Origin: Armatimonadota bacterium
Lineage (GTDB): Bacteria > Armatimonadota > Armatimonadia > Armatimonadales > Armatimonadaceae
DNA: 15,430 bases
Assembly: GCA_014381035.1 (NCBI GenBank)
Contig: JACMIS010000600.1
Location: 1 to 15,430, forward strand
Direction of reading: 5' to 3'
A model generated the notes under the pieces. The model saw only the letters and a program-made list of their open reading frames with translations. It had not been told where the DNA came from and did not search any database. Below are positions 1,864 through 15,430 of this stretch, piece after piece (the first letter of the stretch is position 1; each line of letters begins with the position of its first letter). The position numbers were made by a program, and so were the translations under genes.

Positions 1864-2289
1864 TATGCGCCCGAATCAGCGCGGGGGCAAACTTTCGTTT
1901 CACGGAAAGCAGAACTTATACAGCGGGGATATTCGACATGCTCGCCGCTCAGATGCGGTCGAATGCACCGAGGAGTTTGAGGAATCGTTTGTGGTGAACA
2001 GACCGGAAACAAGTACCTCCGAAGTCCGCGTCAGTTTGTAGAACACCCTACCCTGCCTGTAAAATCGGATTGTCTCTGAATATAAAGAGCCTTGCAAAGT
2101 CATTCAGGAGAAAAACGTATTCAATTAATCGAATTGCCCGGTTTATTCTGAAAGATCCTTGGGTAAAGTAAATATACTTCGTCCGTCCTTAGCGGGTGAA
2201 GGACGGATGTTGTTGCCTGTAGCGGCAAAAAGCTCCACAGTTATGGCCCACACACCCTCCGTCAATACATCAAGGCCCGGGTTCATCCT
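1864..2289. other. 426-bp intergenic region between divergent genes
   Basis: This gap separates the helicase (leftward) from the RsbW-like gene (rightward), so it should hold both promoters. Visible items are a TATACT hexamer at 2173-2178 on the plus strand with no good -35 partner, an orphan Shine-Dalgarno-like AGGAG near 2105 with no start codon behind it, a short CAATT/AATTG repeat near 2122, and the hairpin at 2180-2209. The short open frames here (for example 1900-2103 minus) have no ribosome binding site or recognisable sequence. Confidence 0.5.
2180..2209. repeat. Hairpin upstream of the RsbW-like gene
   Basis: The arms 2180-2190 and 2199-2209 pair over 11 positions (one G-T) around the 8-nt loop AGCGGGTG. 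No T-run follows, so it is not a canonical terminator. It sits 80 bp before the 2290 start and directly after a TATACT hexamer, so it would be near the 5' end of that transcript if the hexamer is a -10 element. Function unknown. Confidence 0.55.
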
Positions 2290-2709
2290 ATGAGATTTCA
2301 TTTGTCGGTTGAACTACCGGACGACCTGGCCTGCTTACCGCGCCTTCGGCGTACAGTCCGCGAATCGTTAATGTTATGCCAGGTCTGCGCGGAGGATATT
2401 GATACGATCGAACTTCTTTTGGGGGAACTCGCTACGAATGCCGCGTGTCACGCCAACGCAGGACACTATCTCGTTAATATGGAAATAACCGACAATAGTG
2501 TGATTCTCACCGTGACCGATAATGGAATCGGTTTTCAGCGTGACGACGTTTTGCCGCCGGTAACGTTGCGTTCCGGAGTCGATGGAGTTGACCGGATCGG
2601 TGGGATGGGATTGCCACTCGTCGAGATGCTCGCGGACGAAGTCGTATTTACCTCCATGAAACCACAGGGCACCAGCGTTCAAGCGGTCAAGTATATCAAT
2701 TTCCGTTGA
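2290..2709 (+). CDS. RsbW/SpoIIAB-like ATP-binding protein (GHKL, HATPase_c)
   Basis: This 139-residue protein is the size of a stand-alone anti-sigma-factor kinase and has the GHKL ATP-binding boxes. The N-box is ELLLGELATNAACHAN, with E46 and N50. The G1 box is TDNGIGF at 76-82, and the G2 box is GGMGLPLV at 104-111. The family (RsbW, SpoIIAB, RsbT) phosphorylates STAS-domain anti-anti-sigma proteins and often binds a sigma factor. No STAS protein, PP2C phosphatase or sigma-B-type gene is adjacent, so the partner is unknown. The ATG at 2290 has only a weak upstream purine stretch (AAGG about 14 nt away). It is transcribed alone, between two minus-strand repair genes. The domain call is firm; the role as a sigma regulator is inferred from family size and architecture. 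Confidence 0.87.
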   Translation: MRFHLSVELPDDLACLPRLRRTVRESLMLCQVCAEDIDTIELLLGELATNAACHANAGHYLVNMEITDNSVILTVTDNGIGFQRDDVLPPVTLRSGVDGVDRIGGMGLPLVEMLADEVVFTSMKPQGTSVQAVKYINFR

Positions 2710-3032
2710 CTGGGACTGCATCCCCCCGACGGCTGTTTTCTCGAGCAGCGATGGCATCCGGCACTCGTTTCATGGTCTGATAACGAGTGTGTTCGTCAGG
2801 ATTTTGTTGTCAAAAGGTGGATCCAACCGGTCGGGCGTTGAACATCTACGGTGCACGTGCGACTGCAAAACAGACAACGCAACACGCCATTACTGTAGCG
2901 GTGTCCTGGGTGATATTAGTTTACCCGCCTCTCAAAGAAATAGCGCACTTGCAACCGTATAAATACGTTCTGGAGATAATATTGTCTGGACAAAAGGGAG
3001 ACGCGGCACTTTTATTGCCATAGAACACCGTT
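2710..3032. other. 323-bp gap between convergent genes
   Basis: It lies between the ends of the RsbW-like gene and ogt. It holds an 8-bp perfect hairpin (2762-2769 with 2782-2789, 12-nt loop) that may end transcription of the upstream gene, but no T-run follows. A 78-codon GTG-initiated frame (2787-3023) has no Shine-Dalgarno and no recognisable motif. I see nothing else. The length is more than a simple convergent gap needs. Confidence 0.45.
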
Positions 3033-3533
3033 TTACAATGCAAGAACGTCACCAGCGCCCTTCTCATGCGCGAGTAGGAAGGCCTTTCGGGATTCGCCGC
3101 CCGCGTACCCGGTCAGTTTGCCGGACGCGCCGATGACGCGGTGGCAGGGGACGATGATCGAAACAGGGTTCCGTCCGTTCGCCGCGCCGACCGCCCGCGC
3201 GGCGTTCGCGTCCCCGATACGGCGGGCAAGCTCGCCGTAGGTGATGGTCTCGCCATACGGAATATCGCACAGTTGTCGCCAGACGGCGTGTTGGAAGGGG
3301 GTGCCGATCGGTGGCGCGACGGGAAGGTCGAACAATCTACGCGTCCCCGCGAAGTATTCCCCGAGTTGCCGCGTCGCTTCTGCGATAACCGGTGTTTCTC
3401 GTGCTACCCAATCGGTGCCGATCCCCACGCCGTTTTTATGCTCGTTCATGTAAACACCGGTAAGGGTGCCGCCCTGGACCGTGAGTAGCAACTGCCCGAT
3501 GGGGCTTTCTATATAGGCGTAATCGGTTGTCAT
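3033..3533 (-). CDS. ogt: Methylated-DNA--[protein]-cysteine S-methyltransferase
   Basis: This 166-residue protein transfers the methyl group from O6-methylguanine (and O4-methylthymine) in DNA to its own cysteine in a suicide reaction. The acceptor motif IVPCHRV is intact with C130. The preceding helix-turn-helix region ([17 protein letters not shown], then [14 protein letters not shown]) and the following GxLxGYxGG segment are as in Ogt/MGMT. The length is typical of the full family. The ATG at 3531-3533 has a good Shine-Dalgarno GAGGA seven bases upstream on the minus strand. The gene lies 142 bp downstream of the Ada-AlkA fusion on the same strand. That gap is filled by a nested palindrome, which may uncouple or modulate the two genes. 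Together the pair covers methylguanine and methyladenine damage. Confidence 0.96.
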
Positions 3534-3560
3534 ATCCGGGTCCTCATTTTGGAGTTCGCC

Positions 3561-3684
3561 GGGGCATGAACGCCCCGGTTATAGTTTTCAACGCCCGAGA
3601 AATCGGGCTGATGCGGAAAGCGCATTCCATTCCCATAGCCGGTTTTAACCGGGTCCTATCGAATAGCCGGGGCGTTTATGCCCC
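3561..3684. repeat. Nested palindromic element: outer stem with three inner hairpins
   Basis: The outer arms 3561-3578 and 3667-3684 are complementary over 18 positions with one G-T pair. Pairing continues inward to 3582/3663, giving about 22 bp. Inside are three separate hairpins: 3593-3608 (6-bp stem, GAAA tetraloop), 3611-3625 (5-bp stem, GAAAG loop) and 3639-3652 (6-bp stem), the last with a further 4-bp base pairing (3635-3638/3656-3659). The whole folds as a four-way junction. It occupies the alkA-ogt gap, and its right arm includes the last two sense codons and the TAA stop of alkA. It may be a dispersed REP/MITE-like repeat or a structured RNA in the alkA-ogt transcript; no target-site duplication was seen. 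Confidence 0.75.
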
Positions 3685-5148
3685 TGTGACGATGCCCCCG
3701 GTAGGTATTTCAGGGACTTCTTTTGGGTTTCCCAGCGACCGCCATAAGTGCATCACGGCATACGCCCGCCAGGGACGCCATTTCTCTGCCAATGCGAGCA
3801 CGTTCCGCGGGTTTGTCGTGCCGAGTGCGTTGTATAAGCCCAGATCGGTGTGTGGGAAGGCATCCGGGTCGCCGAGGGCACGCATGGCGACATATTGTGC
3901 GGTCCATTCTCCGATACCGGGTAGCGTTTTCAATTTCTCCGTCGTTTCGGAAATATCAGTGCCCGGTGTGAACGATATGCTCCCGGTCGCTACGGCGTTC
4001 GCGAGGGCGAGGATGCTTTTCGCTCGCGCCCCGACAATGCCGAGTGCGGCGACGCTATCCACGGTTTCCTGTGCGACCCGTTCCGGCGTCGGGGCAAGAT
4101 GTGTGAGATCCACATATGCGGTTTCCATCGGGGTCCCGAATGCCACGGTGAACCGACTGGCGAGTGTGGTCGCCGCCTTCACGGAAATCTGCTGACCAAG
4201 GATCGCCCGCACCGTCAATTCGAACGGGTCGAACGCGCCGGGGACACGCAAACCGGGACAGTCAGCGGCGAGATCACCAAGTCGTTCTGCGATTGCGACC
4301 GGGTCGACATCCAGGTCGAAAAGTCGCTTTACACGCGCCAGCACGGGTACCATGACGCCCGCCAGCGACGGTGATAACTCTACCACCAGTGCGTCCCGCC
4401 CCATGGCATGACTCACCGACACCACACCCGTTTTATCCTTCACGCGCACTGTCCGCCGGTACACGTCGCTGTCACGCGCTTCCGCGCCGCGTCCGGCTCG
4501 CCCGGTGACATACGCGAGCAATTCCTGCCAGGCAAGCGGCGGCCGGTAAGGCAGTTCGTAGCGCATCACATCCATTGCTTTAATCCCTTCCCGGCTCTTT
4601 CGCAAGTTCGTCGGGTTCAATCGGTAGCGTTCCTGAAACAATGTATTGAATCGCCGCACACTCCCGAAACCCGCCGCAAACGCGATCTCCGTCACGGGCA
4701 AATCGGTGTCGGTAAGAAGTCGCTTGGCGAGTAAGAGGCGTCCGGTCTGTGCCATCTCGACTGGCGAGACGCCAAACGCATCGGTGACGACCCGCCGCAA
4801 ATGTCGGTCCGAGGTATGTAAGTCGGCGGCAAGTTCGGCGACGCTTTTATCCTCCAGAGCACCATCCTCGATGCGACTCGCGGCGCGGGCGGCAAGTCGG
4901 CTTTCGGCATCCACGCGGGAGCGACCGGGCGCGAGTTCGGGGCGGCAGCGCAAGCACGGACGATACCCCGCACGCTCGGCGGACGCGGCATTCGGATAGA
5001 ACGTGCAGTTTTTCGCGCTGGGCAACTTGGCACGGCACACCGGGCGGCAATAGATTCCTGTGGACGACACCCCGACAAAGAAACGCCCATCAAAGCGGGG
5101 GTCATGCGTCGCGAGGGCTTGATAACAGGCGGCATCATTCAGGTGCAT
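3676..5148 (-). CDS. alkA: Ada-type methyl sensor / AraC HTH / AlkA DNA-3-methyladenine glycosylase fusion
   Basis: This 490-residue protein has three parts. Residues 1-75 are the Ada zinc domain with C34, C38, C65 and C68, where Ada accepts a methyl group from DNA phosphotriesters on the first cysteine. Residues about 85-185 are an AraC-type DNA-binding domain. Residues about 193-480 are AlkA: an N-terminal AlkA subdomain, then a helix-hairpin-helix (LPGIGEWTAQY), with the catalytic aspartate in FPHTDLGL (about D435). Such fusions excise N3-methyladenine and related bases and probably also activate transcription when methylated. The overall layout matches the Ada-AlkA proteins of actinobacteria. 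It lies upstream of ogt on the same strand. A TACAAT hexamer ends 5 nt before the ATG, suggesting a leaderless message. The last codons and the stop lie inside the arm of a palindromic element. Confidence 0.95.
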   Translation of the reverse strand: MHLNDAACYQALATHDPRFDGRFFVGVSSTGIYCRPVCRAKLPSAKNCTFYPNAASAERAGYRPCLRCRPELAPGRSRVDAESRLAARAASRIEDGALEDKSVAELAADLHTSDRHLRRVVTDAFGVSPVEMAQTGRLLLAKRLLTDTDLPVTEIAFAAGFGSVRRFNTLFQERYRLNPTNLRKSREGIKAMDVMRYELPYRPPLAWQELLAYVTGRAGRGAEARDSDVYRRTVRVKDKTGVVSVSHAMGRDALVVELSPSLAGVMVPVLARVKRLFDLDVDPVAIAERLGDLAADCPGLRVPGAFDPFELTVRAILGQQISVKAATTLASRFTVAFGTPMETAYVDLTHLAPTPERVAQETVDSVAALGIVGARAKSILALANAVATGSISFTPGTDISETTEKLKTLPGIGEWTAQYVAMRALGDPDAFPHTDLGLYNALGTTNPRNVLALAEKWRPWRAYAVMHLWRSLGNPKEVPEIPTGGIVTGA

Positions 5149-5153
5149 AGCTC

Positions 5154-5159
5154 ATTGTA
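5154..5159 (-). promoter_or_regulatory. Possible -10 element of the Ada-AlkA gene
   Basis: TACAAT on the minus strand, five bases before the ATG at 5148. Transcription would then begin at or next to the start codon, which fits the absence of a clear Shine-Dalgarno. No convincing -35 hexamer is visible at 16-18 bp, as would be expected if an activator such as methylated Ada is needed. Confidence 0.35.
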
Positions 5160-5386
5160 GCAGTTCATATTCGCATCCACTCGCCGTTTTCGGACATGGA
5201 AGTGAGTTCGGTTATAGGGAGTTGGGGATAAAGAGCAGTTCCGGAAGGGGGACGCAGCAGTCAAACGGCTACCGTTATTTCATTACCCCCCTGTCCCCCG
5301 TCCCCATAATCTAATACCGTCCGCTTAAAATTTCCGTGGAGCGGGTACACCGATAGCGTACAAAAAATGATTGAAGGAAACCCAAT

Positions 5387-5650
5387 ATGACACCTGAAAC
5401 ACCGGAAACCGAAGTGATTGACGAGATGGAAACCCCGGTTGAAATCACACAGGATGAGATGATTGATTCTCGCTACTCCTATGATTTGCCGCAGAACGAT
5501 GCCGGTCAAGGCGAAATGAAAACGGACGCAAATACGGCGACTCCCGCCCTGCCAGCCAGCGAGGCACCGGAGCAGGACAACCAGAGCGAGATTCCCGGCG
5601 ACCCTCGCGAGTCCCATCAGACACAACCGCCGACCAGCGAACAGTATTAG
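5387..5650 (+). CDS. Small acidic, probably disordered protein of unknown function
   Basis: This is an 87-residue protein rich in Glu, Asp, Pro, Thr and Gln, with no cysteine, no membrane segment and no recognised domain. It looks intrinsically disordered throughout. I call it a real gene because of its AAGGA Shine-Dalgarno eight bases before the ATG and because it ends at a TAG overlapping the strong AGGAGG of the DUF2231 gene, so the two are probably co-translated. Function unknown. A longer antisense frame crosses it but has random-looking composition. It has the look of a lineage-restricted companion of the membrane protein. Confidence 0.6.
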   Translation: MTPETPETEVIDEMETPVEITQDEMIDSRYSYDLPQNDAGQGEMKTDANTATPALPASEAPEQDNQSEIPGDPRESHQTQPPTSEQY

Positions 5651-5659
5651 GAGGTGACT

Positions 5660-6208
5660 ATGGAATCGCGTGCCAAGTTTCTGGGGCATTCGCTCCACCA
5701 AATGATGATCGTTTTCCCGCTCGGATTGCTGGTCACTTCCGTGCTTTTCGATGTCGCCGGTGCCCTTTCGAGCAGTGCCGAAATGTATCGCGTAGCGTAC
5801 TGGATGATCGCGGTCGGCGTCGTGTCCGGTCTGCTTGCGGCAGTGACGGGTTGGATCGATTGGGGAGCCATCCCGACGGGAACACGAGCGAAGGCGGTCG
5901 GTTTGTCGCACGGCTTGGCGAACACGGTCATGATCGCTGCATTCGGCTTGTCGTGGTGGATTCGCTATTCGACGAATCCGTCCAGCCCGTCTGTGCTGGC
6001 GATAGTTTTGTCGTTCCTCGCGCTCGGTATCGGGCTTTTCGCGGCATGGCTGGGGGGCGAACTGGTCAACCGTCTGGGAGTCGGCGTAGACAACGGCGCG
6101 CATTTGAACGCCCCTTCGTCGCTTTCCGGCAAACCCGCGACCGACACCCCGCTTCCGCTGGTAGAGTCGGCTTCCTCTGCCCCATCGCAGACGGAAAGCC
6201 ACGCATAG
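5660..6208 (+). CDS. DUF2231 family membrane protein
   Basis: This protein of about 182 residues has four predicted membrane helices. DUF2231 hallmarks are visible: an N-terminal GHSLHQMMIVFPLG, then LAAVTGWIDW, then AWLGGELVNRLGVGV after the fourth helix. The Pro/Ser/Thr-rich tail (about 40 residues) looks disordered. The family has no settled function; some relatives sit near redox or haem proteins, and the conserved histidine in the first helix suggests metal or haem binding (inference). The start is the ATG at 5660, with AGGAGG at 5649-5654 five bases upstream; an in-frame GTG at 5654 would overlap that site and is less likely. It is co-transcribed with the acidic protein just upstream. 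Confidence 0.85.
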   Translation: MESRAKFLGHSLHQMMIVFPLGLLVTSVLFDVAGALSSSAEMYRVAYWMIAVGVVSGLLAAVTGWIDWGAIPTGTRAKAVGLSHGLANTVMIAAFGLSWWIRYSTNPSSPSVLAIVLSFLALGIGLFAAWLGGELVNRLGVGVDNGAHLNAPSSLSGKPATDTPLPLVESASSAPSQTESHA

Positions 6209-6522
6209 GGTGATTTGTTTTTCTTTCCGGTTTTTCCTCGGATTCCGGGGCAAAACCGGAGGCTGTTTTAACTGACACCCACCATATTCATCTCTCCCGC
6301 TTTCTATTTCAGGACTTCTTGACGGACTGTCGCGATTACCATTGTCCTCGGAAGGGATCACAAGACAGCATGTCGCGAGGTCATCCTTGGAACCCGATAA
6401 AATAAGTGCCACGCCAGCCTCCCACGGAAACGTGTTTCCTGCAGAACTATCTGCCGTCTAAACAATACCCCTGTGGAAGACGACCACATACTATGGTCGC
6501 TTACTCGAGGAAAAAGCGTATC
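6209..6522. other. 314-bp gap between the DUF2231 gene and the ECF sigma operon
   Basis: It contains a probable terminator (6226-6269), a TTGACG hexamer at 6319-6324 without a matching -10, a TAAAAT hexamer at 6398-6403 and a small palindrome at 6426-6439 (GGAAAC/GTTTCC). The sigma frame is open back to 6406, so part of this gap could be coding if an upstream start (GTG 6406 or ATG 6493) is used. Confidence 0.45.
6226..6269 (+). terminator. Probable intrinsic terminator after the DUF2231 gene
   Basis: Arms 6226-6234 and 6252-6260 form a 9-bp stem (CCGGTTTT paired with AAAACCGG plus one outer pair). TTTT follows at 6266-6269, five bases after the stem. It lies 18 bases beyond the DUF2231 stop. 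The loop is long (17 nt) and the T-run short, so strength is uncertain. Confidence 0.45.
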
Positions 6523-7170
6523 ATGCACAGCGAAGTCATCAGCATATCCTCTTCAAACGACAACGGTCTCTGCGAAGCATCTTCCTGGCGTAGTCGGTGT
6601 GCGGCCGACGATGCAAACCTCATCCGCCAGTGCGGGCGCGGCGACAAGGACGCCTTGAAAGAGTTGGCGCAACGGTACGAATCCCCTTTGTTTCGGTTTC
6701 TGCTACATCAGATGGGGTCGGTCGAAGATGCGGAGGAGGCGGTACTGGAAGTGTTTGTGCGCGTCTGGCTTCACGCCGGGAGTTTCCGCTTTCAAGCAAG
6801 TGTGTCCACCTGGCTCTACCGTATTGCCGCGAACATCGCCCGTGACGCCTACGACCGGCGCAAGGCGCGTCCTCAGACGGCACCGCCCGATGCGTATGAT
6901 CTGGCGCGTCATGCGGTGGGGGATGCCGCCGCAGAAGCCATGGAACGGTTGGAAAGCGCGGACCGTTCCCGTATACTGCAACAGGCTCTCGCCCTGCTGG
7001 ATGCCAATGACCGGTTGGTACTCGTCCTGTATTATCTGGAGGAGCGCGACTATAAAGAGATGCAGACCATCACTGGCTGGATCTACCCGGTGTTGAAGAC
7101 ACGGCTGGTACGGGCACGTGTGCGACTACGTGGGCGCATGAAGGAGCTGGGCTTTGAAGCAATCTTATGA
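6523..7170 (+). CDS. ECF-type RNA polymerase sigma factor
   Basis: From the ATG at 6523 this is 215 residues, with the two sigma-70 regions of an extracytoplasmic-function factor. Region 2 runs from LIRQCGRGDKDALKELAQRY through the DAEEAVLEVFVRVW and STWLYRIAANIARDAYDRRK segments. Region 4 covers LLDANDRLVLVLYYLEERDYKEM and the recognition helix ahead of KTRLVRARVRLR. The region-4 turn reads TGWIYPVLKTRL, off the usual GxPxGTVKSRL, so promoter recognition may be unusual. The start is uncertain: GAGGA lies 11 nt before ATG 6523, and ATG 6493 or GTG 6406 are in frame. The stop overlaps the anti-sigma start by ATGA, so the pair is translationally coupled and the sigma factor is probably held inactive by that partner. 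Confidence 0.9.
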   Translation: MHSEVISISSSNDNGLCEASSWRSRCAADDANLIRQCGRGDKDALKELAQRYESPLFRFLLHQMGSVEDAEEAVLEVFVRVWLHAGSFRFQASVSTWLYRIAANIARDAYDRRKARPQTAPPDAYDLARHAVGDAAAEAMERLESADRSRILQQALALLDANDRLVLVLYYLEERDYKEMQTITGWIYPVLKTRLVRARVRLRGRMKELGFEAIL

Positions 7171-7661
7171 AATGCAAACAATTCCGCGAAAATCTGCCTG
7201 ACTGGCTTACAAACCGATTGGCACCCCGTTTCAACGCGGAAATGGGGGCTCACAGTGCTACCTGCTCGACCTGTGCCGATATTGAACAGGAAGAACGCCG
7301 TCTGCGGACTGTATGGCAAAACATCCCCAGTCTCCCTTCACCTGACCTGTTGCCGCGCCTGACGGATCGGTTGAACGCCATCCGCCCTGCCCCCGGTCCC
7401 CGTTGGAACGCCTATCTTACGGTTGCCGGAACGGCTTGTGCGATGGCGGCGGCGGCTTGGCTCTATGTCGGGGGAGTCGGTCGTCAGGCGATATCCTATC
7501 AAAGAGAGCCTATCGTCTCCCAGACTTTAAGCAGCCCGCCTTTAGAGGATATGTTGGAAGGAGTTCGCTGGCGTTCGTCCGACGAATGGGATGCAAGCCG
7601 GGAGCCACCGGTTTATGATGTACAGATGCGTTCGCTCCTACTGGTCAAGGAGATCGAGTAG
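7167..7661 (+). CDS. Membrane anti-sigma factor with zinc-finger (zf-HC2/ZAS) domain
   Basis: This 164-residue protein carries the ZAS signature near its N-terminus: C3, then H29-x3-C33-x2-C36 (HSATCSTC). This zinc-binding helical domain clamps ECF sigma factors. One membrane helix follows at about 82-101 (YLTVAGTACAMAAAAWLYVG). The remaining roughly 60 residues would be periplasmic and have no recognised domain. The ATG overlaps the sigma stop (ATGA), and its own stop abuts the next ATG, so all three genes form one unit. It should bind the sigma factor of 6523-7170 and release it on an envelope signal, perhaps by proteolysis. The direct pairing is a strong inference from position and domain. 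Confidence 0.88.
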   Translation: MKCKQFRENLPDWLTNRLAPRFNAEMGAHSATCSTCADIEQEERRLRTVWQNIPSLPSPDLLPRLTDRLNAIRPAPGPRWNAYLTVAGTACAMAAAAWLYVGGVGRQAISYQREPIVSQTLSSPPLEDMLEGVRWRSSDEWDASREPPVYDVQMRSLLLVKEIE

Positions 7662-8090
7662 ATGGACCGCAGGACGTTCACTCTTGTGGCAATGTTGACG
7701 ACGCTCTTCGGTTCAGTGGCTGCCGAGCGAGCCCATGCACAGGGAGATTTCGGGGGGCTGCGCCGCCGCTTAAACCTGTCGGACGAGCAACAAAAGAAGA
7801 TTCAGCAGCTCTACCGGGATAGCGACCGTCGAAAACGAGAGATCGGGGAGAAACTCCACAAACTGTACTCCGAACTTGACCGGTTGTACGACCGGTATGA
7901 ATTCGACTCGGCACGTGTCCGATCTGTTACGGATGAGATCACGGAGGTGCGTCGTCGCTCGCTGACCCTGTATATGGACAATGAGGAGGGATTACGGCGT
8001 ATCATTACCCGTGAGCAGTTCGACCGTCTCCGCGATATCACGAAAGTGCGCAAAGGGGAAAGAGAAAGCAAGGACAAAGACCGGGACTGA
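7662..8090 (+). CDS. Secreted Spy/CpxP-like (LTxxQ) periplasmic protein
   Basis: This 142-residue protein has an N-terminal signal peptide with cleavage likely after AHA (about residue 26). The mature part is all-helical and very charged. It has two LTxxQ-type motifs, LNLSDEQQKKI near 38-48 and ITREQFDRL near 115-123, as in the Spy/CpxP/CnrX/ZraP group. Spy is a periplasmic chaperone, CpxP inhibits an envelope sensor and CnrX senses metal for an ECF/anti-sigma pair. Here it directly follows the ECF and anti-sigma genes (AAGGAG nine bases before its ATG; the upstream stop abuts it). It has very few His, Met or Cys residues, so metal sensing is less likely than chaperone or misfolded-protein sensing. 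Confidence 0.78.
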   Translation: MDRRTFTLVAMLTTLFGSVAAERAHAQGDFGGLRRRLNLSDEQQKKIQQLYRDSDRRKREIGEKLHKLYSELDRLYDRYEFDSARVRSVTDEITEVRRRSLTLYMDNEEGLRRIITREQFDRLRDITKVRKGERESKDKDRD

Positions 8091-8125
8091 CTTGTCCGTC
8101 GCCCACGGATCATCGGATTCTTTCG

Positions 8126-8151
8126 CATACCCTCGGCGCGACGCGGGTATG
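8126..8151. repeat. Small hairpin between the Spy-like and SDR genes
   Basis: CATACCC (8126-8132) pairs with GGGTATG (8145-8151) around a 12-nt loop. There is no T-run after it. It may attenuate read-through from the sigma operon into the SDR gene. Confidence 0.4.
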
Positions 8152-8176
8152 ACAAAGCCAGAGGAGAATTCTGTCT

Positions 8177-9214
8177 ATGTCCCGTTTTCAGCCAAAGCCA
8201 CTGCAAGACCAGGTGGTCGTTATCACTGGTGCGTCATCCGGCATCGGGCGCAAAGCTGCCCACCTTTTAGCGGAGAAAGGCGCGTCCATCGTGCTCGCCG
8301 CACGCAACGAAGTCGCGCTGAATGAAACCGCCCGCGAAGTCACCGAGCGGGGCGGACGCGCCCTTGTTGTTCCGACCGATGTGTCCGACAAAGCGCAGGT
8401 CGAAGCACTGGCGGAGCAAGCCGTATCGCACTTCGGGCGCGTTGATACCTGGGTCAACAACGCCGCCGTTTCCACGTATGCCTATCTACGCACCCAACCG
8501 GTCGAGGACATCGAGCAGGTATTCGCGGTGAATGTCTTAGGCACGATCCATGGTAGCCGTGCCGCGATTCCCCACCTGTCGCGAAACGGGGGCACACTGA
8601 TCAATGTCGGCTCGATCCTGTCGGAGCGGGCAATCCCGCTTCAGGGCATTTATTGTGCGTCTAAACACGCCGTCAAGGGGTTTACCGAAGCCCTGCGTAT
8701 GGAACTGGATCACGAGGAGATTCCCATAAACGTGACGTTGATCAAGCCGTCCGTGATTGACACGCCGTTTTACACGCAGGCGAAATCGCTGACCGGACGA
8801 CGCCCGCGTGCCTTGCCACCGATCTACGATGTTTCGGTGCCCGCCGGGGCGATTGTGTCGGCGTGCGGGCAGTACCACCGCGAAATCTATGCGGGCGGTT
8901 CAGCAGCGGCATTGGGAGCGTTGCAACGATTGTCACCGGAAGCCCTGGATACGTTTATGAAGCATTCGGGCGGTTACTTCGGCTTTTTCGAGGGACAACT
9001 TTCCGACGAACCGGACGACGGTCGTTCGAACCTGTACCGCCCGGAACCGGGAACCGGCTCTACAACGGGGAACAATGCGCCCCGGAGTAAAAGCGTCGCC
9101 ATGCCCTCGGTCTATACCGCGGCTCTGGAACTACCCCCGGTCGTAAAACAAGGACTCGCCTGCGTCGCCGTCGGAGCCATCGCCGCGCTCTTATACAACC
9201 GGAAAGAGGCTTAA
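8177..9214 (+). CDS. SDR-family oxidoreductase with C-terminal membrane tail
   Basis: This 345-residue protein has a classical short-chain dehydrogenase core: nucleotide-binding TGASSGIG at 17-24, NNAA at 94-97, N119, and the catalytic set S146, Y159 and K163 (YCASK). R43 after the second strand suggests NADP(H) rather than NAD(H) preference. SDR cores are about 250 residues. The remaining 95 hold a Ser/Thr/Pro-rich stretch and a terminal membrane helix (VKQGLACVAVGAIAALLYN) ending in a short basic tail, so the enzyme is probably anchored to the inner membrane with its core in the cytoplasm. The substrate cannot be told from sequence. AGGAG lies ten bases before the ATG. It follows the sigma operon by 86 bp and may be a target of it or independent. 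Confidence 0.92.
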   Translation: MSRFQPKPLQDQVVVITGASSGIGRKAAHLLAEKGASIVLAARNEVALNETAREVTERGGRALVVPTDVSDKAQVEALAEQAVSHFGRVDTWVNNAAVSTYAYLRTQPVEDIEQVFAVNVLGTIHGSRAAIPHLSRNGGTLINVGSILSERAIPLQGIYCASKHAVKGFTEALRMELDHEEIPINVTLIKPSVIDTPFYTQAKSLTGRRPRALPPIYDVSVPAGAIVSACGQYHREIYAGGSAAALGALQRLSPEALDTFMKHSGGYFGFFEGQLSDEPDDGRSNLYRPEPGTGSTTGNNAPRSKSVAMPSVYTAALELPPVVKQGLACVAVGAIAALLYNRKEA

Positions 9215-9303
9215 CCACAAAGATCACAAAGTTTGGGAAGGATACGAATGTCTTCTAAGTGCAGGACCTTCGTATCCTTCCCAAACTTTGTGATCTTTGT
9301 GGT
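9214..9303. repeat. Perfect 34-bp inverted repeat between convergent genes
   Basis: Arm 9215-9248 is the exact reverse complement of 9269-9302, with one more A-T pair outside (9214/9303) and a 20-nt spacer. The spacer itself pairs for 5 bp more (9250-9254/9263-9267). It starts on the last base of the SDR stop codon and ends 12 bases from the stop of the converging C11 gene. It probably acts as a bidirectional terminator or mRNA end barrier, although there is no T-run. The length and perfection also suit a recently arrived palindromic mobile unit. Confidence 0.85.
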
Positions 9304-9314
9304 CGTATCGGTAT

Positions 9315-10772
9315 TTACTGTGGTCCCTGGGTCAGGAAGGATTGCCAGTTGGGCGCGTCTCGGGCGAAGAGCAACTCGGTGTAGCGTTGCCCGAAGCCGT
9401 TCGCCTGAGAAATATCGTCGCGCCGATAGGCGTTCGGCGACGGCAGGTAGATCGCGAGACCTTTCGCATTCGGGTGATCCTCGCCGTTTACTGTTTTGAC
9501 GATAGCGGCGCGGGCGGCTTCCTCGACTCGTGTCGCGCTCGCTTGAACCGCTGGATCACTGACCCGCTCCTTGATCAATCGGGCGAAGTCGAGCAGGTCT
9601 TTGTTCTCATCGTAATCGAACTGTTCGGAGTCCTCCCGAGCGTCGGCGATCTGGTTGCCGAATGCGCCTTTTGCCGCGAGCAAGGACGCGCCGAAACTGT
9701 TCACGGCGGATGCCAGCGGTGCGATCTTGCTGGCGTCGAGAAGCGACTCGGTGATATTGGAGTTGATGCCGTACCCCGCGATCATGGCGTCGCAGATCGC
9801 CTCGCCGACGAAGCGTCCGTCGGCATCGGGGTTTGCGATCAGTTTGTCTACCCAGCGGTCATAGGGATACCCGCGTCCCGGAGGAGACTCTTCGGACCCG
9901 ACGATCCAGTTGGTTTGATCCTTGATTTCATAGGCAACTTCCATCATCTGCATCAGGGATGAATCCCATGCGACGAGATCCCACTTCCGCCCGCTATCGA
10001 GGCGAATCGCCTCCGGTATTTCGATGGTATCGATGTGGGTCTCTTTTTCGTCATCGTAGGAGAAACCGCGTGTGACCGGTGACTTCGCACTTCGGCTACG
10101 CCATCCCGCGCCGTGGTTCCAGAGGACGATGGCGTATCGCTCCGCCGGGAATGTTTTGACGCCCCACTGGATAAACTCCTGGAGCGTTTCTTTGCTACCC
10201 ATGTCAATATCGGCACGGGTAGAGATGATCGGTGAGGTGACTGTGTTGCTATCGCTATCACGGCGTACCACGAAGCGGCGTGCCCCTGCCCAGTCCCCGT
10301 CGGATTTATCATCGTAACTTGCGCTCGATTGTATGCGCTTGAACTGCGCGACAAAGGTGATGTTATTATCGGAGCCGAACTGCTCCATCTGGTTGAGGTT
10401 CAGGTTGCCGTATTCTTCCAGATCGTTCGCGCCGTTCATGTAAAGCAAAACGGTCCATTTGCGAGTCGGCTGCACCGCGGTGCTACATTGCCCGCTCCAA
10501 CCCGGCTGGTTGATGACTGTCCCGCCACGGCTGCAACCGTCCGACAGCGCACCGCCGCGTCCCGGATCGCCAATGGAGGCAGAGGGGGATGGGGTGGGGT
10601 TACCGCCGGTTGTTGAACCACCACCGTTACCACCGGTTGTTGTGCCGCCAGTTGTAGAACCGCCACCGCCACCCCCACATCCGGATAGTGCGGCGACCGC
10701 ATAAAAACCGACAACGGCGGAAAAGGCAAGAAGCCGCGTTGCGGCAGAAAGGGAACGTGGTTTGTTTAACAT
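9315..10772 (-). CDS. Clostripain-family (C11) lipoprotein with Ser in place of catalytic Cys
   Basis: This 485-residue protein has a lipoprotein signal ending in LSGC (C32), a Gly/Ser/Thr/Asn linker with a long glycine run, then a pair of cysteines (SDGC and SGQC) and a C11 peptidase domain. Domain landmarks are KWTVLLYMNGANDLEEY, the histidine box VLWNHGAGW (H220), and VAWDSSLMQMMEVAYE. In C11 peptidases that last motif reads DACLM and its Cys is the nucleophile; here it is Ser272 (TCC, 9957-9959). The Asp before it, the following SEE segment and GYPYDRW are kept. It may be a serine variant, or an inactive binding or scaffold protein on the cell envelope. The start is the ATG at 10772, chosen because leader and signal peptide align without gaps to those of the paralogue; ATG 10781 is also possible. 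Confidence 0.85.
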   Translation of the reverse strand: MLNKPRSLSAATRLLAFSAVVGFYAVAALSGCGGGGGGSTTGGTTTGGNGGGSTTGGNPTPSPSASIGDPGRGGALSDGCSRGGTVINQPGWSGQCSTAVQPTRKWTVLLYMNGANDLEEYGNLNLNQMEQFGSDNNITFVAQFKRIQSSASYDDKSDGDWAGARRFVVRRDSDSNTVTSPIISTRADIDMGSKETLQEFIQWGVKTFPAERYAIVLWNHGAGWRSRSAKSPVTRGFSYDDEKETHIDTIEIPEAIRLDSGRKWDLVAWDSSLMQMMEVAYEIKDQTNWIVGSEESPPGRGYPYDRWVDKLIANPDADGRFVGEAICDAMIAGYGINSNITESLLDASKIAPLASAVNSFGASLLAAKGAFGNQIADAREDSEQFDYDENKDLLDFARLIKERVSDPAVQASATRVEEAARAAIVKTVNGEDHPNAKGLAIYLPSPNAYRRDDISQANGFGQRYTELLFARDAPNWQSFLTQGPQ

Positions 10773-10818
10773 GAAAGACATGATTCCATCTGAAAGGTTG
10801 AATATCGCTTTGAATTGG

Positions 10819-10872
10819 ATACTAACAGAACGCATCCCCTTCAAATAGTGTGACGATGCGTTCTGTTAGTAT
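10819..10872. repeat. Perfect 18-bp inverted repeat between the two C11 genes
   Basis: Arm 10819-10836 is the exact reverse complement of 10855-10872, with an 18-nt spacer. It lies between the stop of the upstream C11 gene (10890) and the start of the downstream one (10772). For leftward transcription the sequence after the hairpin has no T-run. It could separate the two transcripts, protect the 3' end of the first, or be a regulatory structure in the leader of the second. Confidence 0.8.
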
Positions 10873-10889
10873 AGCCCGAATTCAATAAT

Positions 10890-12311
10890 TTATGGGGACG
10901 TTTGCGTGAGAAAGGATTGCCAGTTGGGCGCGTCCCGCGCGAAAAGCAGCTCCGTGTAGCGTTGCCCAAAGCCGTTCGCCTGGATGATGTCGTCGCGCCG
11001 GTAGGTACCGGGCGAGGGAATATAGATGGCGATTCCCTCTGCGTTCGGATGATTCGAACCGCGAACGTTTTTAACGACAGCCGCCCGAACGGCAGCTTCT
11101 ACCTGAACCGCCGCAGCACGAACATCGGGGTCACTCACTTTTTGCTGGGTGATTCGAGCGAAATCGAGCAAGTCCTTGTTAAGATGTTCATGAACCATAT
11201 ATTCGCTTTCCTCGCGGGCTTCCTGAATTTCGTCGTTGAAACGATCCTTCGCCTGCGAAAGGGATGCGCCGAAACTGTTCACAGCGGACGCCAGCGGTGC
11301 GATCTTGCTGGCGTCGAGAAGCGACTCGGTGATATCCGGATCGTTCGGGTAGCCAGTGATCATGGCATCGCAGATCGCCTCGCCGACGAAGCGTCCGTCG
11401 GCATCGGGGTTTGCGATCAGTTTGTCTACCCAGCGGTCATAGGGATAGCCCTGCGCTGGCGGTGACTCCTCGGACCCGACGATCCAGTTGGTTTGATCCT
11501 TGATTTCATAGGCAACTTCCATCATCTGCATCAGGGACGAGTCCCACGCGACGAGGTCCCATTTGCGGTCATTGCCGAGGGTTATCGCCTCCGCGAATTC
11601 AATGGTTTCGATATGCGTGCCGGTTTCATCGTCGTACGAAACGCCCCGTGTTCCTTGTCTGGGTTTCTGACTGCGCCATCCCGCGCCGTGGTTCCAGAGG
11701 ACGATGGCGTATCGCTCCGCCGGGAATGTTTTGACGCCCCACTGGATAAACTCCTGGAGCGTTTCTTTGCTACCCATGTCTACATTTTTACGAGAGGCAA
11801 TAATCGGCGACGATACGTGGGTAAAATCGTTATCACGGCGGACGACATAACGGCGCGTCTCCGTCCAGTCGCCGTCGGATTTATCATCCCGCAACGGCTC
11901 CGCGTGTGCGCTCTCCGGGATTCTTTTGAACTGCGCCACGAAAGTAATATTTGCATCGGAGCCGAACCGCTCTATCTGGTTGAGGTTCAGGTTGCCGTAT
12001 TCTTCCAGGTTGTTCGCGCCGTTCATGTAAAGTAACACAGTCCATTTGCGGGTGGGTTGCACCGCGGTGCTACACTGCCCGCTCCAGCCGAGTTGGGTAA
12101 TAAAGGCACCCGCACGGCTGCAACCGTCCGATAGTGCTCCACCACGTCCTGGCTCACCGACCGGAACAAAGACAGAGGGTGACGGGTTGGGCGAAACTGT
12201 TTCGCTACCGCCACCACAACCGGAAAGTGTGCCAGCGATGCAGACACCGGCAAGAGCAAAAAAGGGAAGAAACCACGCCGCGGCGGAAAGAAAATATGAT
12301 TTTTGTGGCAT
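10890..12311 (-). CDS. Second clostripain-family (C11) lipoprotein, same Cys-to-Ser change
   Basis: This 473-residue tandem paralogue of the next minus-strand gene has the same order: lipobox LSGC (C32), a shorter Ser/Pro linker, two conserved cysteines, then the C11 domain. The histidine box NHGAGW is intact (H208). The nucleophile motif again reads VAWDSSLMQ, with Ser259 (TCC, 11535-11537) where family members have Cys. The two copies share long identical DNA tracts, including 107 bp around the histidine box. They differ in the linker, in the stretch before MGSKETLQ and near the region around 11180-11260. The start is the ATG at 12311 with weak ribosome binding; upstream in-frame codons are open but precede the signal peptide. 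The gene is divergent from the sigma-like gene at 12429, so their control regions lie close together. Confidence 0.85.
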   Translation of the reverse strand: MPQKSYFLSAAAWFLPFFALAGVCIAGTLSGCGGGSETVSPNPSPSVFVPVGEPGRGGALSDGCSRAGAFITQLGWSGQCSTAVQPTRKWTVLLYMNGANNLEEYGNLNLNQIERFGSDANITFVAQFKRIPESAHAEPLRDDKSDGDWTETRRYVVRRDNDFTHVSSPIIASRKNVDMGSKETLQEFIQWGVKTFPAERYAIVLWNHGAGWRSQKPRQGTRGVSYDDETGTHIETIEFAEAITLGNDRKWDLVAWDSSLMQMMEVAYEIKDQTNWIVGSEESPPAQGYPYDRWVDKLIANPDADGRFVGEAICDAMITGYPNDPDITESLLDASKIAPLASAVNSFGASLSQAKDRFNDEIQEAREESEYMVHEHLNKDLLDFARITQQKVSDPDVRAAAVQVEAAVRAAVVKNVRGSNHPNAEGIAIYIPSPGTYRRDDIIQANGFGQRYTELLFARDAPNWQSFLTQTSP

Positions 12312-12414
12312 AAAGGGGATGTCTCTATCTGTAGGGTCGAATCTCGCTCCGATTGGACACACTGTAGTGGTGCACACTTCAAAAGACGCAACATATATTC
12401 TTTTCGAGCGGTGG

Positions 12415-12420
12415 TAAAAT
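12415..12420 (+). promoter_or_regulatory. Possible -10 element for the sigma-like gene
   Basis: TAAAAT preceded by TGG, eight bases before the ATG at 12429. Transcription would start nearly at the start codon, consistent with the absence of a Shine-Dalgarno there. No -35 hexamer is seen. If the real start is GTG 12561, the leader would instead be about 135 nt. Confidence 0.3.
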
Positions 12421-12428
12421 AGACGGCG

Positions 12429-13250
12429 ATGAACGAAGCGATAGTCACCCCGCCGTCAGCCCGCGCCACTGCCTCCGGTAGTCCTGCGTGGCATAGTATC
12501 CGCCCACTCACCCGTGCCCGCAAAGACTCCGGCGAAGCCTATACGCGAGAGGGGAGCGTAGTGGCACAGATAACGCGCCTGGGAGGGATGACGAACGCGG
12601 AGCGACAGAGGGCACTGACCGTGATCTACGACGGCAAAGACCCGCTACGCCCTAAAGAGGAGACAATCGTTTATTTCGTACGTGAGTATGACCGGCGCGG
12701 GGATAAGAACGCGGCGTGGAGACTGCTGGAAACGCTGTTGAGCCGCATTCCCGGTCATGTCGGGCGGGAATTGGCGAAGTGGCGTCTGCCCGAATCGGAG
12801 CAGAACGAGTGCATGGAGGCCCTGGTCGTCGAGATGTATGAGGCGATCCTTTCGCATGAACCGCGACAGGAGTTCTGGGAAGTGCGATTCTGGGTGTGTT
12901 TGGACCGGCGAATTCATGCCCACGCGGAAAAGATGCAACGGGTCCGCGACCGCGAGGTACGCCCCGCCGATGATTTTGGTGCCGAGGAAGACAGTGCGCA
13001 CGGGGCGGAAGGGATCTTCGCTACCCTCGCCGATACCCATGCTTCCCCGGAGGTGATCGCCCTGCGAAAAGATTTACAAGCGCGCCTTTCCGAAACGGAG
13101 TGGCAAGCCGTATTCTTAAAGTACATAGAGAAAATACCGGAAGAATCGGGCGATGCGGACAAGGTGACTATCGCAAAAATACTGGGTGTCACCGGGCGGT
13201 CGGTACGCAACTATCTGCGCCGCGCTGAGAAGAAATTGCTGGACGCGTAG
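12429..13250 (+). CDS. Divergent sigma-70-like regulator
   Basis: This protein of up to 273 residues ends in a helix-turn-helix typical of sigma region 4 or a LuxR-like fold (VTIAKILGVTGRSVRNYLRRAEKKL). That is preceded by LSETEWQAVFLKYIE, a counterpart of the sigma segment before the HTH. Residues about 130-180 (EFWEVRFWVCLDRRIHAHAEKMQRVRDREV) resemble a region 2 helix pair. It would bind DNA and probably RNA polymerase core, but this is inferred. The helix between the two HTH halves carries an insertion (IPEESGDADK). The start is uncertain: ATG 12429 lacks a Shine-Dalgarno, whereas GTG 12561 has GAGGGGAG just upstream and would remove a low-complexity N-terminus. It heads the run of plus-strand genes to lptC and is divergent from the C11 lipoproteins. 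Confidence 0.65.
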   Translation: MNEAIVTPPSARATASGSPAWHSIRPLTRARKDSGEAYTREGSVVAQITRLGGMTNAERQRALTVIYDGKDPLRPKEETIVYFVREYDRRGDKNAAWRLLETLLSRIPGHVGRELAKWRLPESEQNECMEALVVEMYEAILSHEPRQEFWEVRFWVCLDRRIHAHAEKMQRVRDREVRPADDFGAEEDSAHGAEGIFATLADTHASPEVIALRKDLQARLSETEWQAVFLKYIEKIPEESGDADKVTIAKILGVTGRSVRNYLRRAEKKLLDA

Positions 13251-13260
13251 GTTGGTTTTG

Positions 13261-13298
13261 TTTTGTTTTCTGTCCTCTGCGGAGGACAGAAAACAAAA
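13261..13298. repeat. Perfect 17-bp hairpin after the sigma-like gene
   Basis: Arm 13261-13277 is the exact reverse complement of 13282-13298 around the 4-nt loop TGCG; two G-T pairs extend the base. The lower stem is T-rich on the left and A-rich on the right. It starts 10 bases after the stop codon at 13250 and ends 39 bases before the next ATG. No T-run follows the right arm, so it may be an attenuator or processing point rather than a full terminator. Confidence 0.8.
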
Positions 13299-13337
13299 TG
13301 CAAAGATTCGGGTAATGGAAACAGGTACAGGAAAACG

Positions 13338-13943
13338 ATGAACACGCAAGCAACTGTTGCGGAAAATTTTAATACGGAGGCAGACGCGATTGTCACCGCG
13401 TTCGCGGACGCTCTTGAAAACGGCGAGGCGAGTGTCGCCGATTGGAGCGGACGCTATCCCCAGCTCGGGCGCGACTTCGCTCGGATTGCCGCGCAAAACT
13501 TTGTCGGAGCGAACGGAGGCGAGGACAATGCCGTCACCCAGCGACTACAGCGTGTCGCACAGAGCGCGTTGGTGAAATACAGAACGGCGTATTTAGGGGT
13601 GCAGCCACTGACCTCGCTCGTGGATAAAGAGCGCGGCATCACGGCGGCGAATATCGCACAGGCGATCTCGCTCCCGCTTCCGTTTGTCGCCAAACTCAAT
13701 CAGCGGCTTTTCACGGCGGCTTCGGTGCCGGCAACGCTCGTCGGGCGGATCGCGGACGCCATCGGTCGCACAACGGACGAGGTGGTTGCATTTCTTGCCG
13801 GTCCACCGATGCTGGCGCGATCCGCCGCGTATCGCGCCGATGACGCGCCGGTGATCGGGGAGCAAGAGGATTTTCAGGCGGCACTCCTCGCCGACCGGTC
13901 GGTCTCGCAGGAGGCGAAGACGGCTTATAGCGGGAACGGATAA
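13338..13943 (+). CDS. XRE-like helix-turn-helix protein, probable partner of the upstream sigma-like protein
   Basis: This 201-residue protein has an N-terminal part with a WSGRYPQLGRDFARIAAQNF segment (residues about 32-51). A middle part fits an XRE/Cro-type HTH: GITAANIAQAISLPLPFVAKLNQR, then IPATLVGRIADAIGRT (with VP in place of IP here) and TDEVVAFLAGPP. The C-terminus has EDFQAALLADRSVSQEAKT. I recall this layout from proteins encoded next to sigma-factor genes in several phyla, but no function is established. The start is ATG 13338, with AGGA five bases upstream; the frame is open further back, but that would cross the hairpin at 13261-13298. It follows the sigma-like gene by 87 bp and probably modulates it or shares its targets. 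Confidence 0.65.
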   Translation: MNTQATVAENFNTEADAIVTAFADALENGEASVADWSGRYPQLGRDFARIAAQNFVGANGGEDNAVTQRLQRVAQSALVKYRTAYLGVQPLTSLVDKERGITAANIAQAISLPLPFVAKLNQRLFTAASVPATLVGRIADAIGRTTDEVVAFLAGPPMLARSAAYRADDAPVIGEQEDFQAALLADRSVSQEAKTAYSGNG

Positions 13944-13991
13944 TCGTTCTCACGATTTGCCGTTTTCCCCTTCTCTGGTGGACGCGATAAA

Positions 13992-14573
13992 ATGAGCGTT
14001 AGAAGCGAGGCGAATCAGGTAATGGCAATCACGCAAAAGCAGGTGCGGCAGTTTCTTCTTATCGGCGGTGGCATCTTCGCGTTAACGATGGCGTTCGGTA
14101 GCGGGATGCGGTGGCGAAGCCGCGAACTCAAGCACACTTACGAACTCTACAAGATTTATCGTCAGGAGGCGCGCGTCGCGCAACTCGCGGTGCAGGGAGG
14201 TGAGGCGCAGATTCACCAGTTGGAAGCGCGTCGGCTCCTTGATGTTGCGCAAAACGACCTCGGACGCAGCGACACGGACGCCGCGAAAGCGACGGTCGCG
14301 GAGCTTGTCACCCGTTTGCAAACCGCGCAGGCGGCCAACGCCGCGACGACGGCCGACTTCACCGGGCTGATCGCGGACATAAAAAACCTCTCCCTTGCGG
14401 ATAAAACCGCCGCGAAACTGTCTCTCGGGTTATTCGCCCTGGCGATGGACGAAAAATTATCGCAATCGGGTAGCCGTCTCGCGCCAAACGAACTTTCTAC
14501 CGTCAAGATCGCGCCGCCCACCGACAACGAAAAACCGACGCTGGGAAACGACCTGACCTTACGCGTCAAGTAA
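13992..14573 (+). CDS. Membrane-anchored coiled-coil protein of unknown function
   Basis: This protein of up to 193 residues has one N-terminal membrane helix (about residues 20-40, FLLIGGGIFALTMAFGSG). A long charged helical part follows (about 45-125), with alternating Ala/Leu and Glu/Arg/Gln likely to form a coiled coil, and then a Pro-rich tail. I do not recognise a family. It would be anchored in the inner membrane with the coiled coil outside. The start is ATG 13992 or ATG 14022; neither has a strong Shine-Dalgarno (GGTGG ten bases before the first). It lies 48 bp after the XRE-like gene and 29 bp before lptC, so it probably shares their transcript. A role in envelope assembly is suggested only by this position. 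Confidence 0.6.
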   Translation: MSVRSEANQVMAITQKQVRQFLLIGGGIFALTMAFGSGMRWRSRELKHTYELYKIYRQEARVAQLAVQGGEAQIHQLEARRLLDVAQNDLGRSDTDAAKATVAELVTRLQTAQAANAATTADFTGLIADIKNLSLADKTAAKLSLGLFALAMDEKLSQSGSRLAPNELSTVKIAPPTDNEKPTLGNDLTLRVK

Positions 14574-14602
14574 ACGCGGCGACTGCAAAAGGAGCGGTGA
14601 AC

Positions 14603-15262
14603 ATGAACCCGGACCGGGCGAGATCGTGGGCGACCATAACAGGAATCATCGTTGCTATCCTCGCGGTGGCGGCGGGGCTGCGCTACGCCATGACGCCGAA
14701 CCGTCCTTCTGCCATTAATCGACCGAATCCTGATGCACTTCCGCCTGGGGTGAGTATCCGTCACAGACGCTCCGTATTCACCGGGTATGATGAGCAGACG
14801 CGGAAAGCATGGGTAGTGCGTGCAGACACGGTAGAGTTCAGTTCCGACCGCTCGCGGGTGGAAGCACGCGGCAACGTGGAAGCCGAGCTATTCGACGCAC
14901 CGACGGGGAAGCGTCGGGCACTCATTACGGCGGGGACGTTTGTATTTACTCGAAACTCGAAATCGCTCCAGGTAGGCGGCAAGATCATCTGTCAGGCTCC
15001 CGGCAAAAACGACAAAAGCGATCTGCGCGTGGAAGCCGACATGTTGATCTGGAACGTAGGGGCAAAACAGATCATTTGTCCGGGAGAGGTGACGGCAGAG
15101 TTACCCAACGGTAAGGGGACGGCACGAGGGCGCGAATTGACACTGGACCTGCCCAGCCGGGAATGGACCCTGCAACAATTCCACGGCGAATTTGCCTTCC
15201 GTGAAGGCGAGGGAAGTGTCCCACCACCGTTCGTGAACCCGCTCAAGGGCTTACCGTTCTAG
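14603..15262 (+). CDS. lptC: LptC-like lipopolysaccharide export periplasmic protein
   Basis: This 219-residue protein has a short N-terminal membrane helix (about 13-29) and then an LptC/OstA-type beta-jellyroll region. The repeated pattern of AxxVEF, VEARGNVEAELF, LRVEADMLIWN and GKGTARGRELTLDL strands is typical. LptC links the inner-membrane LptBFG transporter to the periplasmic LptA bridge, carrying lipopolysaccharide outward. The length is near that of E. coli LptC (about 190 residues) plus a short tail ending in FVNPLKGLPF. The start is ATG 14603, eight bases after AAAGGAG; an in-frame GTG at 14597 lies too near that site. LptA and LptB, often next to lptC, are not seen before a strong hairpin 36 bp downstream. 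Confidence 0.78.
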   Translation: MNPDRARSWATITGIIVAILAVAAGLRYAMTPNRPSAINRPNPDALPPGVSIRHRRSVFTGYDEQTRKAWVVRADTVEFSSDRSRVEARGNVEAELFDAPTGKRRALITAGTFVFTRNSKSLQVGGKIICQAPGKNDKSDLRVEADMLIWNVGAKQIICPGEVTAELPNGKGTARGRELTLDLPSREWTLQQFHGEFAFREGEGSVPPPFVNPLKGLPF

Positions 15263-15297
15263 TTTCACGCGAGGATGGAAATCCCTTGAGCAAAGGC

Positions 15298-15333
15298 AAG
15301 GGCGGCTAACGAACCGTTTCGTTAGCCGCCCTT
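15298..15333. terminator. Perfect 16-bp hairpin after lptC
   Basis: Arm 15298-15313 is the exact reverse complement of 15318-15333 around the loop CCGT. It lies 36 bp after the lptC stop and is the likely end of the 12429-15262 run, but no T-run follows it. Confidence that it is a terminator is moderate; the hairpin itself is certain. Confidence 0.65.
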
Positions 15334-15398
15334 ACCGAACTCCGCCGTGACGAGGGGGCATCATCTCGCCACTGTCCGCCGTCCCGCCCGCGTCGCCG

Positions 15399-15430
15399 TC
15401 AAATAGCCGACGGCGTCGGCTACTATTTGA
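15399..15430. repeat. Second inverted repeat at the right edge
   Basis: TCAAATAG (15399-15406) pairs with CTATTTGA (15423-15430), and an alternative inner stem pairs 15404-15411 with 15415-15422 around GGC. The structure reaches the last base of the window and may continue beyond it. Confidence 0.6.

Follow-up and report, generated by a model that had tools for sequence, protein, structure and literature searches.

The described systems nearest to the proteins considered here are the C11 peptidases clostripain from C. histolyticum (MEROPS C11, PDB 9cip) and PmC11 from Parabacteroides merdae (PDB 3uws/4yec). Their clan, CD, is characterised by a His/Cys dyad in the available passages of two papers (PMC4850288, PMC12445089). 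A Ser that naturally occupies the nucleophile position in a cysteine protease fold is found in TbMCA4 and the pseudo-orthocaspases, which also have the clan CD fold, and in Plasmodium SERA5, where the other catalytic residues are kept. According to excerpts of the literature, the former belong to the metacaspase family and are reported or presumed to be inactive, with both dyad positions varying in the cyanobacterial pseudo-variants, while SERA5 has a papain fold and a reported non-enzymatic role. On whether TbMCA4 retains its His, the sources disagree in the portions at hand (PMC6657590, PMC6426788). The natural Cys-to-Ser cases in clan CD that we found are called pseudopeptidases or presumed inactive in the same partial texts. 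The window analysed here is a stretch of 15,430 nucleotides from an Armatimonadota bacterium (GCA_014381035.1, contig JACMIS010000600.1, positions 1 to 15,430). It encodes on its minus strand two putative lipoproteins of the C11 fold, copy A (9315..10772, 485 residues) and copy B (10890..12311, 473 residues), with Ser at the position of the catalytic Cys. Judging from sequence comparison, and with confidence that is evenly divided, we propose that they are serine-type, self-processing peptidases with a Ser/His dyad in place of Cys/His. Residue numbers are those of copy B throughout.

Both proteins match PF03415 over most of the profile (140 bits and 1.8e-40 for copy A, 138.5 bits and 5.3e-40 for copy B, with a curated cut-off of 25.8), and a clan CD α/β/α fold with the C11 C-terminal domain is predicted. 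The clostripain equivalog TIGR02806 scores 58.3 and 59.5 bits, below its 550-bit threshold. A first-pass annotation of this DNA had described two C11-family open reading frames (ORFs) with the His motif NHGAGW and with Ser for Cys in DSSLM, and both are present as described. The Ser codons are TCC at 9957..9959 (copy A residue 272) and 11535..11537 (copy B residue 259), read on the minus strand, where the dyad His codons also lie (10113..10115 in copy A; 11688..11690, His208, in copy B). That annotation had proposed alignment with PF03415 and PmC11 as a check, and had regarded a different Cys at the nucleophile position as fatal to its claim. In alignments with the PDB sequences of PmC11 (3uws_B) and clostripain (9cip) the Ser of DSSLM falls without gaps on the catalytic Cys, Cys179 in PmC11 and Cys231 in clostripain, and the position is unambiguous. 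An alternative Cys nucleophile is rejected, as the commonest Cys column has Cys in no more than 32% of the 348 Ser-type rows of our alignment.

Residue counts refer to 673 alignment rows (589 distinct strings), after omission of the 6 of 679 rows with fewer than 250 filled columns. The Cys that MEROPS C11 members have in D(A/S)C is replaced by Ser in both copies. Since the Ser is also found in 119 of 120 listed homologues, we do not file these proteins as C11 cysteine peptidases. Three related Ser proteins (P0066, P0087 and P0100) are labelled ‘clostripain-related cysteine peptidase’ by their sources. The remaining sequence features of MEROPS C11 are present. The catalytic His in H(G/A) and the S1 Asp that precedes the nucleophile by two residues, equivalent to PmC11 His133 and Asp177, are invariant as His208 and Asp257 (348/348 Ser rows each), and the autocleavage site has a basic residue, Arg in both copies and R/K in 332 of 343 Ser rows. 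Asn100 is Asn in 325 of the 348. The nucleophile column contains only Ser or Cys wherever it was read and the His does not vary, so the scattered dyad of pseudo-orthocaspases is not seen here; a scattered or relaxed dyad is, for its part, not obligatory for every pseudoenzyme.

The Ser nucleophile is accompanied by a change in the S1 loop, which reads EESPPG in the Ser rows. Ser283-Pro284 (EESPP; 9882..9887 in copy A and 11460..11465 in copy B, minus strand) is found in 344 of 348 Ser rows (276/280 distinct, with SE in the remaining 4), and Ser283 is invariant in all Ser rows read. The same pair occurs in 4 of 325 Cys rows (4/309 distinct), the Cys proteins having mostly Thr or Asn followed by Glu, Val or Ile. 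Column 283 aligns with Glu203 of PmC11 and column 284 with Thr204, which is named among the residues lining the S1 pocket in the part of PMC4850288 available. PmC11 differs from the window proteins by Cys179 to Ser, Glu203 to Ser, Thr204 to Pro and Asp207 to Gln or Arg, and clostripain by Ser for Cys231, the Ser-Pro-Pro of the S1 loop and the lipobox.

The coupling is also visible where Cys proteins lie among the Ser proteins. In six such lineages the S1 loop reads EELSP (P0012), EELTP (L289), EENTP (L181, L255), EDLVP/EDLTP (L123, L186), EDSTP (L195) or EEIVP (L184): five of the six lose both Ser283 and Pro284, and L195 keeps the Ser and loses the Pro. The nearest Ser relative of each lineage keeps SPP. 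We scanned the 59 columns conserved to at least 90% in 342 Ser rows for departures in these six lineages, which were chosen by us. The columns departing in at least three of them are 259, by definition, 283 (5/6) and 284 (6/6); the expected number of columns with at least five departures is 0.002, assuming independent departures. Outside the scan stood the other Cys rows of the corresponding FastTree set, namely L095, L098 and L100 (NV or NI at 283-284), L106, L191 and L197 (PE) and L109, which reads ES as aligned and whose AEESPG would read SP with a one-gap shift. As the counts were made only after the coupling had caught our attention, and as the lineages were our own choice, the last protein search served as a fresh test; among its 119 new proteins, SP is present in 6 of 6 Ser and 3 of 113 Cys proteins.

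The second line of evidence is the retained autocleavage position. The B chains of three C11 structures begin opposite residue 223, which places the putative site between Arg222 and Gly223; this is the position of the Lys147-Ala148 cleavage in PmC11 and of Arg190 in clostripain. The Arg of TRG is encoded at 10068..10070 in copy A and 11646..11648 in copy B (minus strand), and a basic residue 222 is as well kept in Ser rows as in Cys proteins. A basic residue is usual in Ser rows, and infrequent in Cys rows, at position 213, the equivalent of the first autocleavage site of clostripain (Arg181). The coupled S1-loop change and the retained autocleavage residues go beyond the first-pass annotation and carry most of our argument.

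The Ser type is widespread. The homologue search gave 626 proteins, of which 120 were listed, including the two encoded in the window. Of the listed proteins, 119 have Ser in the nucleophile column and 1 has Cys; all have the His, and the Ser motif is D[A/S/C/L]SLM. Among the 109 of these 120 that have at least 420 residues, 98 have a lipobox-like stretch within the first 60 residues. Scanning a single genome of each species gave 373 relatives, of which the best 80 are mainly titled Armatimonadota and Elusimicrobiota. One of the three peptide patterns behind L001–L080 contains the Ser, so counts from these loci lean towards Ser; the PF03415 searches are free of such bias. Of 291 Armatimonadota genomes searched for PF03415 (the phylum being that of G001, which contains locus L049 and is titled Fimbriimonadales), 219 have a match and 72 do not. 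C11 ORFs were read from 200 of the 219, some second matches lying outside the read set. The Ser type is present in 152 of these genomes, 148 with Ser only and 4 with both types; DACLM-like Cys proteins alone are found in 25 and a more remote CY/CF type alone in 22, and 1 genome has a Cys type and an unread fragment. Most of L132–L154 are distant C11-like proteins from this phylum search with motifs of the DCCY, DCCF or EACY type, which form a separate FastTree group and possibly represent another clan CD subfamily.

The closest Cys-type outgroup from the genome scan is the C11 group of Elusimicrobiota with DACLMQ (P0123 and others). It shares NHGAGW, DxxLMQ and the basic residue 222 with the Ser proteins. 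It differs in the nucleophile, which is Cys in 120 of 120 proteins listed with an Elusimicrobiota query (the query's own entry included), in the S1 loop (EETEPGDG) and in position 213, which is non-basic in 69 of 69 representatives. Four contigs titled Elusimicrobia or Elusimicrobiales, or bacterium (L059, L062, L069 and L072), have at least three adjacent Cys-type C11 genes each. One comparison of the two types rested on representatives after thinning at 85% identity, 180 of them Ser and 141 Cys.

These distributions support the view that the Ser type is a maintained group and not a local oddity, as far as the sequences go. The first-pass annotation had argued against random decay or sequencing error from the presence of Ser in both copies. 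The conclusion holds, through the 119 of 120 homologues and the phylum-wide conservation, while the argument from the two copies is weak on its own. Copies A and B are 75% identical in DNA and share exact tracts of 107, 80 and 68 base pairs, one spanning the His motif and another beginning at the nucleophile Ser codon. Such long exact tracts within copies of this identity suggest duplication followed by gene conversion, which makes sharing between the copies weak evidence and leaves the phylum-wide conservation as the real evidence.

We omitted the nucleophile column and its neighbour from every tree. The FastTree phylogeny of 268 rows requires 8 Ser/Cys changes, 7 of them forced by supported branches, compared to 82.9 on shuffling; 160 of its 163 Ser rows are joined by 13 Cys rows in a single supported 173-row set. 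In a quick IQ-TREE phylogeny of 97 rows there are 11 changes (6 forced, 27 on shuffling), with the Ser rows in several groups and Cys groups interspersed. A careful 45-row tree with long branches removed gives 7 changes, 4 forced, and a one-change topology is found in 0% of 200 bootstrap trees. The idea that DSSLM forms its own clade is only partly borne out: the FastTree set favours it, but the 13 Cys rows inside that set, the variable D[A/S/C/L]SLM motif and the several groups on IQ-TREE do not. A set with 100/99 support unites P0012 (DACLM) and five Ser proteins, including both window copies. P0012, a 58% identical relative with SHASGW and EELSP, is probably a natural return to Cys among Ser proteins. 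The L195, L289 and L181/L255 lineages are in two other Ser-dominated sets with 100/99 support. L184 is weakly placed (81/54). The careful tree omits the long branches L123/L186 and further long-branch and Cys rows, and its label counts therefore do not equal those of the FastTree and 97-row trees. Cys lineages nested in supported Ser sets imply that Ser and Cys were interchanged more than once, and the Cys outgroups suggest that Cys came first and was later regained. On the tree, serine codon types switch 5 times at the nucleophile; the range for four further conserved serines is 4 to 7, so that these switches are uninformative.

The invariant His and S1 Asp, the autocleavage residues, the restriction of the nucleophile to Ser or Cys and the pocket that travels with it find their simplest explanation if the site still does chemistry, Ser being the nucleophile and Ser283-Pro284 belonging to the adaptation. 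In the proposed mechanism the protein would be exported and probably lipid-anchored through the lipobox that is seen in its sequence. Self-activation would follow by cuts after basic residues bounding a surface linker, at 222 (after the Arg of TRG) and probably at 213, positions that rest on alignment with PmC11 Lys147 and clostripain Arg190 and Arg181. Ser259, together with His208 and the remodelled S1 wall, would then attack the bond that follows the P1 residue, itself held in place by Asp257 and Asn100. Ser283 is a candidate extra element that might aid the weaker nucleophile through a hydrogen bond, whether with that nucleophile itself, with the His or with the oxyanion, although this is a guess. 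More broadly, these proteins may be a serine-peptidase branch within the caspase/clostripain fold, built around a Ser259-His208 enzyme, in which the nucleophile and S1-wall (Ser283-Pro284) switches evolved together through several Ser/Cys changes that each moved both sites; we see an equal chance of this being right or wrong.

Several points weigh against a serine peptidase. We know of no clan CD His that activates a Ser. SP is not exclusive to the Ser type, being present in the Cys rows P0294, P0303, P0311 and L205 and in no others, which may represent an intermediate order of the changes. A paired sign test on supported branches, under-powered with its six pairs, was not significant for Ser283 (4.4 in the same direction, 0 opposite, p 0.125) or for Pro284 (5 same, 1 opposite, p 0.22). 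Clustering of the Ser/Cys label is not clear in the thinned 45-row tree, whose 7 changes compare with 8.5 on shuffling and were matched or undercut in 42 of 500 shuffles. Serine codons at the nucleophile, searched for a trace of passage via Cys, divide into 79 TCN and 80 AGY and give no support. An acidic residue 287, at the position of PmC11 Asp207, is found in 229 of 348 Ser rows; the window copies have Gln and Arg there. The basic residues at 222 and 213 could be structural.

Described precedents point the same way, and favour instead a conserved pseudopeptidase that does not cleave and whose old substrate cleft, shaped by Ser259, Ser283 and Pro284, would serve to bind a peptide or envelope ligand. 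In the passages available, SERA5 with its natural Ser has no detectable activity and its S596A mutant no phenotype, so that Ala is tolerated (PMC4671257), and TbMCA4, a clan CD protein with a natural Ser, is termed a pseudopeptidase (PMC7475262, PMC6657590). Likewise, in the excerpts at hand, T. brucei PNT1, a C11 protein, is non-functional as C136S, which is not viable (PMC4850289), and pseudo-orthocaspases retain the fold and the acidic pocket (PMC6426788). Ligand binding can also give strict motif conservation. We regard a pseudopeptidase as a serious possibility, somewhat short of an even chance. What speaks against it is that both dyad positions are varied in the cyanobacterial pseudo-variants of clan CD (YS, YN, YR, HG and more, in the part of PMC7475262 available), whereas here the His is kept in 348 of 348 rows and the nucleophile is only Ser or Cys. 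The basic residue 222 is kept as in Cys proteins, and Cys-type members occur among the Ser proteins. The Ser type is moreover the sole PF03415 match in 122 of the 148 Ser-only genomes, whose assemblies may be incomplete, and this leaves no other C11 to regulate or be regulated by. All of this evidence is still compatible with a case like that of SERA5. The first-pass annotation had offered a serine variant or a pseudoprotease as its two options; the maintained Ser-type group is supported, and regulation of a co-encoded active C11 relative is disfavoured, because 148 of 152 Ser-bearing genomes lack a Cys C11 among the ORFs read.

An active Ser enzyme with another reaction, i.e. an esterase, amidase or transpeptidase/ligase acting on envelope material, is unlikely. 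Ser nucleophiles suit esters, the S1 wall is remodelled to Ser-Pro-Pro and residue 287 is variable, but Asp257, Asn100 and the basic autocleavage residue stay peptidase-like and no neighbouring gene indicates a substrate. Misalignment, another Cys as nucleophile, sequencing error or gene decay is very improbable, since apart from a Cys at −1 (DCSLM) in 79 of 348 Ser rows nothing was found in its favour, and the ungapped alignment to PmC11 Cys179, the low ceiling on every Cys column and the intact ORFs from many assemblies that share the Ser all contradict it.

The coordinates given for the two copies assume ATG starts, with which the lipobox LSGC follows an apparent signal peptide in both, as read by eye; alternative upstream TTG/GTG starts would give proteins of 509 (copy A) and 495 (copy B) residues. 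A perfect 18-nucleotide inverted repeat between the copy B stop and the copy A start (10819..10872, −31.3 kcal/mol, z −6.95) is a possible terminator of copy B. A second inverted repeat with 39-nucleotide arms (9214..9303, −67.4 kcal/mol, z −14) lies between copy A and a convergent short-chain dehydrogenase/reductase gene and is a possible bidirectional terminator; its arms are 97% complementary, and it is long for a terminator. The pair is flanked by a gene with a weak sigma-region-4 match (12429–13250). In a comparison of 68 sequences (67 loci and the window), relatives of this gene are found close to C11 genes in 8, and relatives of the gene that follows it (13263–13943) in 5, the window counted. 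A divergent gene is present at 18 of 67 Ser loci, and an example sequence was read by eye as GAF-GGDEF, with no family search. No constant gene-neighbour partner is found across the 67 Ser loci and the window, and the neighbours are too weak to assign a substrate.

Among the listed matches from the open-access literature on clostripain/C11, clan CD, caspase-fold Ser nucleophiles and pseudoproteases, as far as their text was available, we recognised no description of this group. The naming of its Ser proteins as cysteine peptidases is an annotation fault that the present comparison exposes. If the serine-peptidase reading is true, the group would represent a natural nucleophile exchange in clan CD with the compensating change visible. 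A Ser group on the scale of a phylum, with the His, the S1 Asp and the autocleavage residues retained and with nucleophile and pocket changing together, provides a direct test of what a caspase-like fold requires for a Cys-to-Ser swap, its natural Cys relatives serving as controls.

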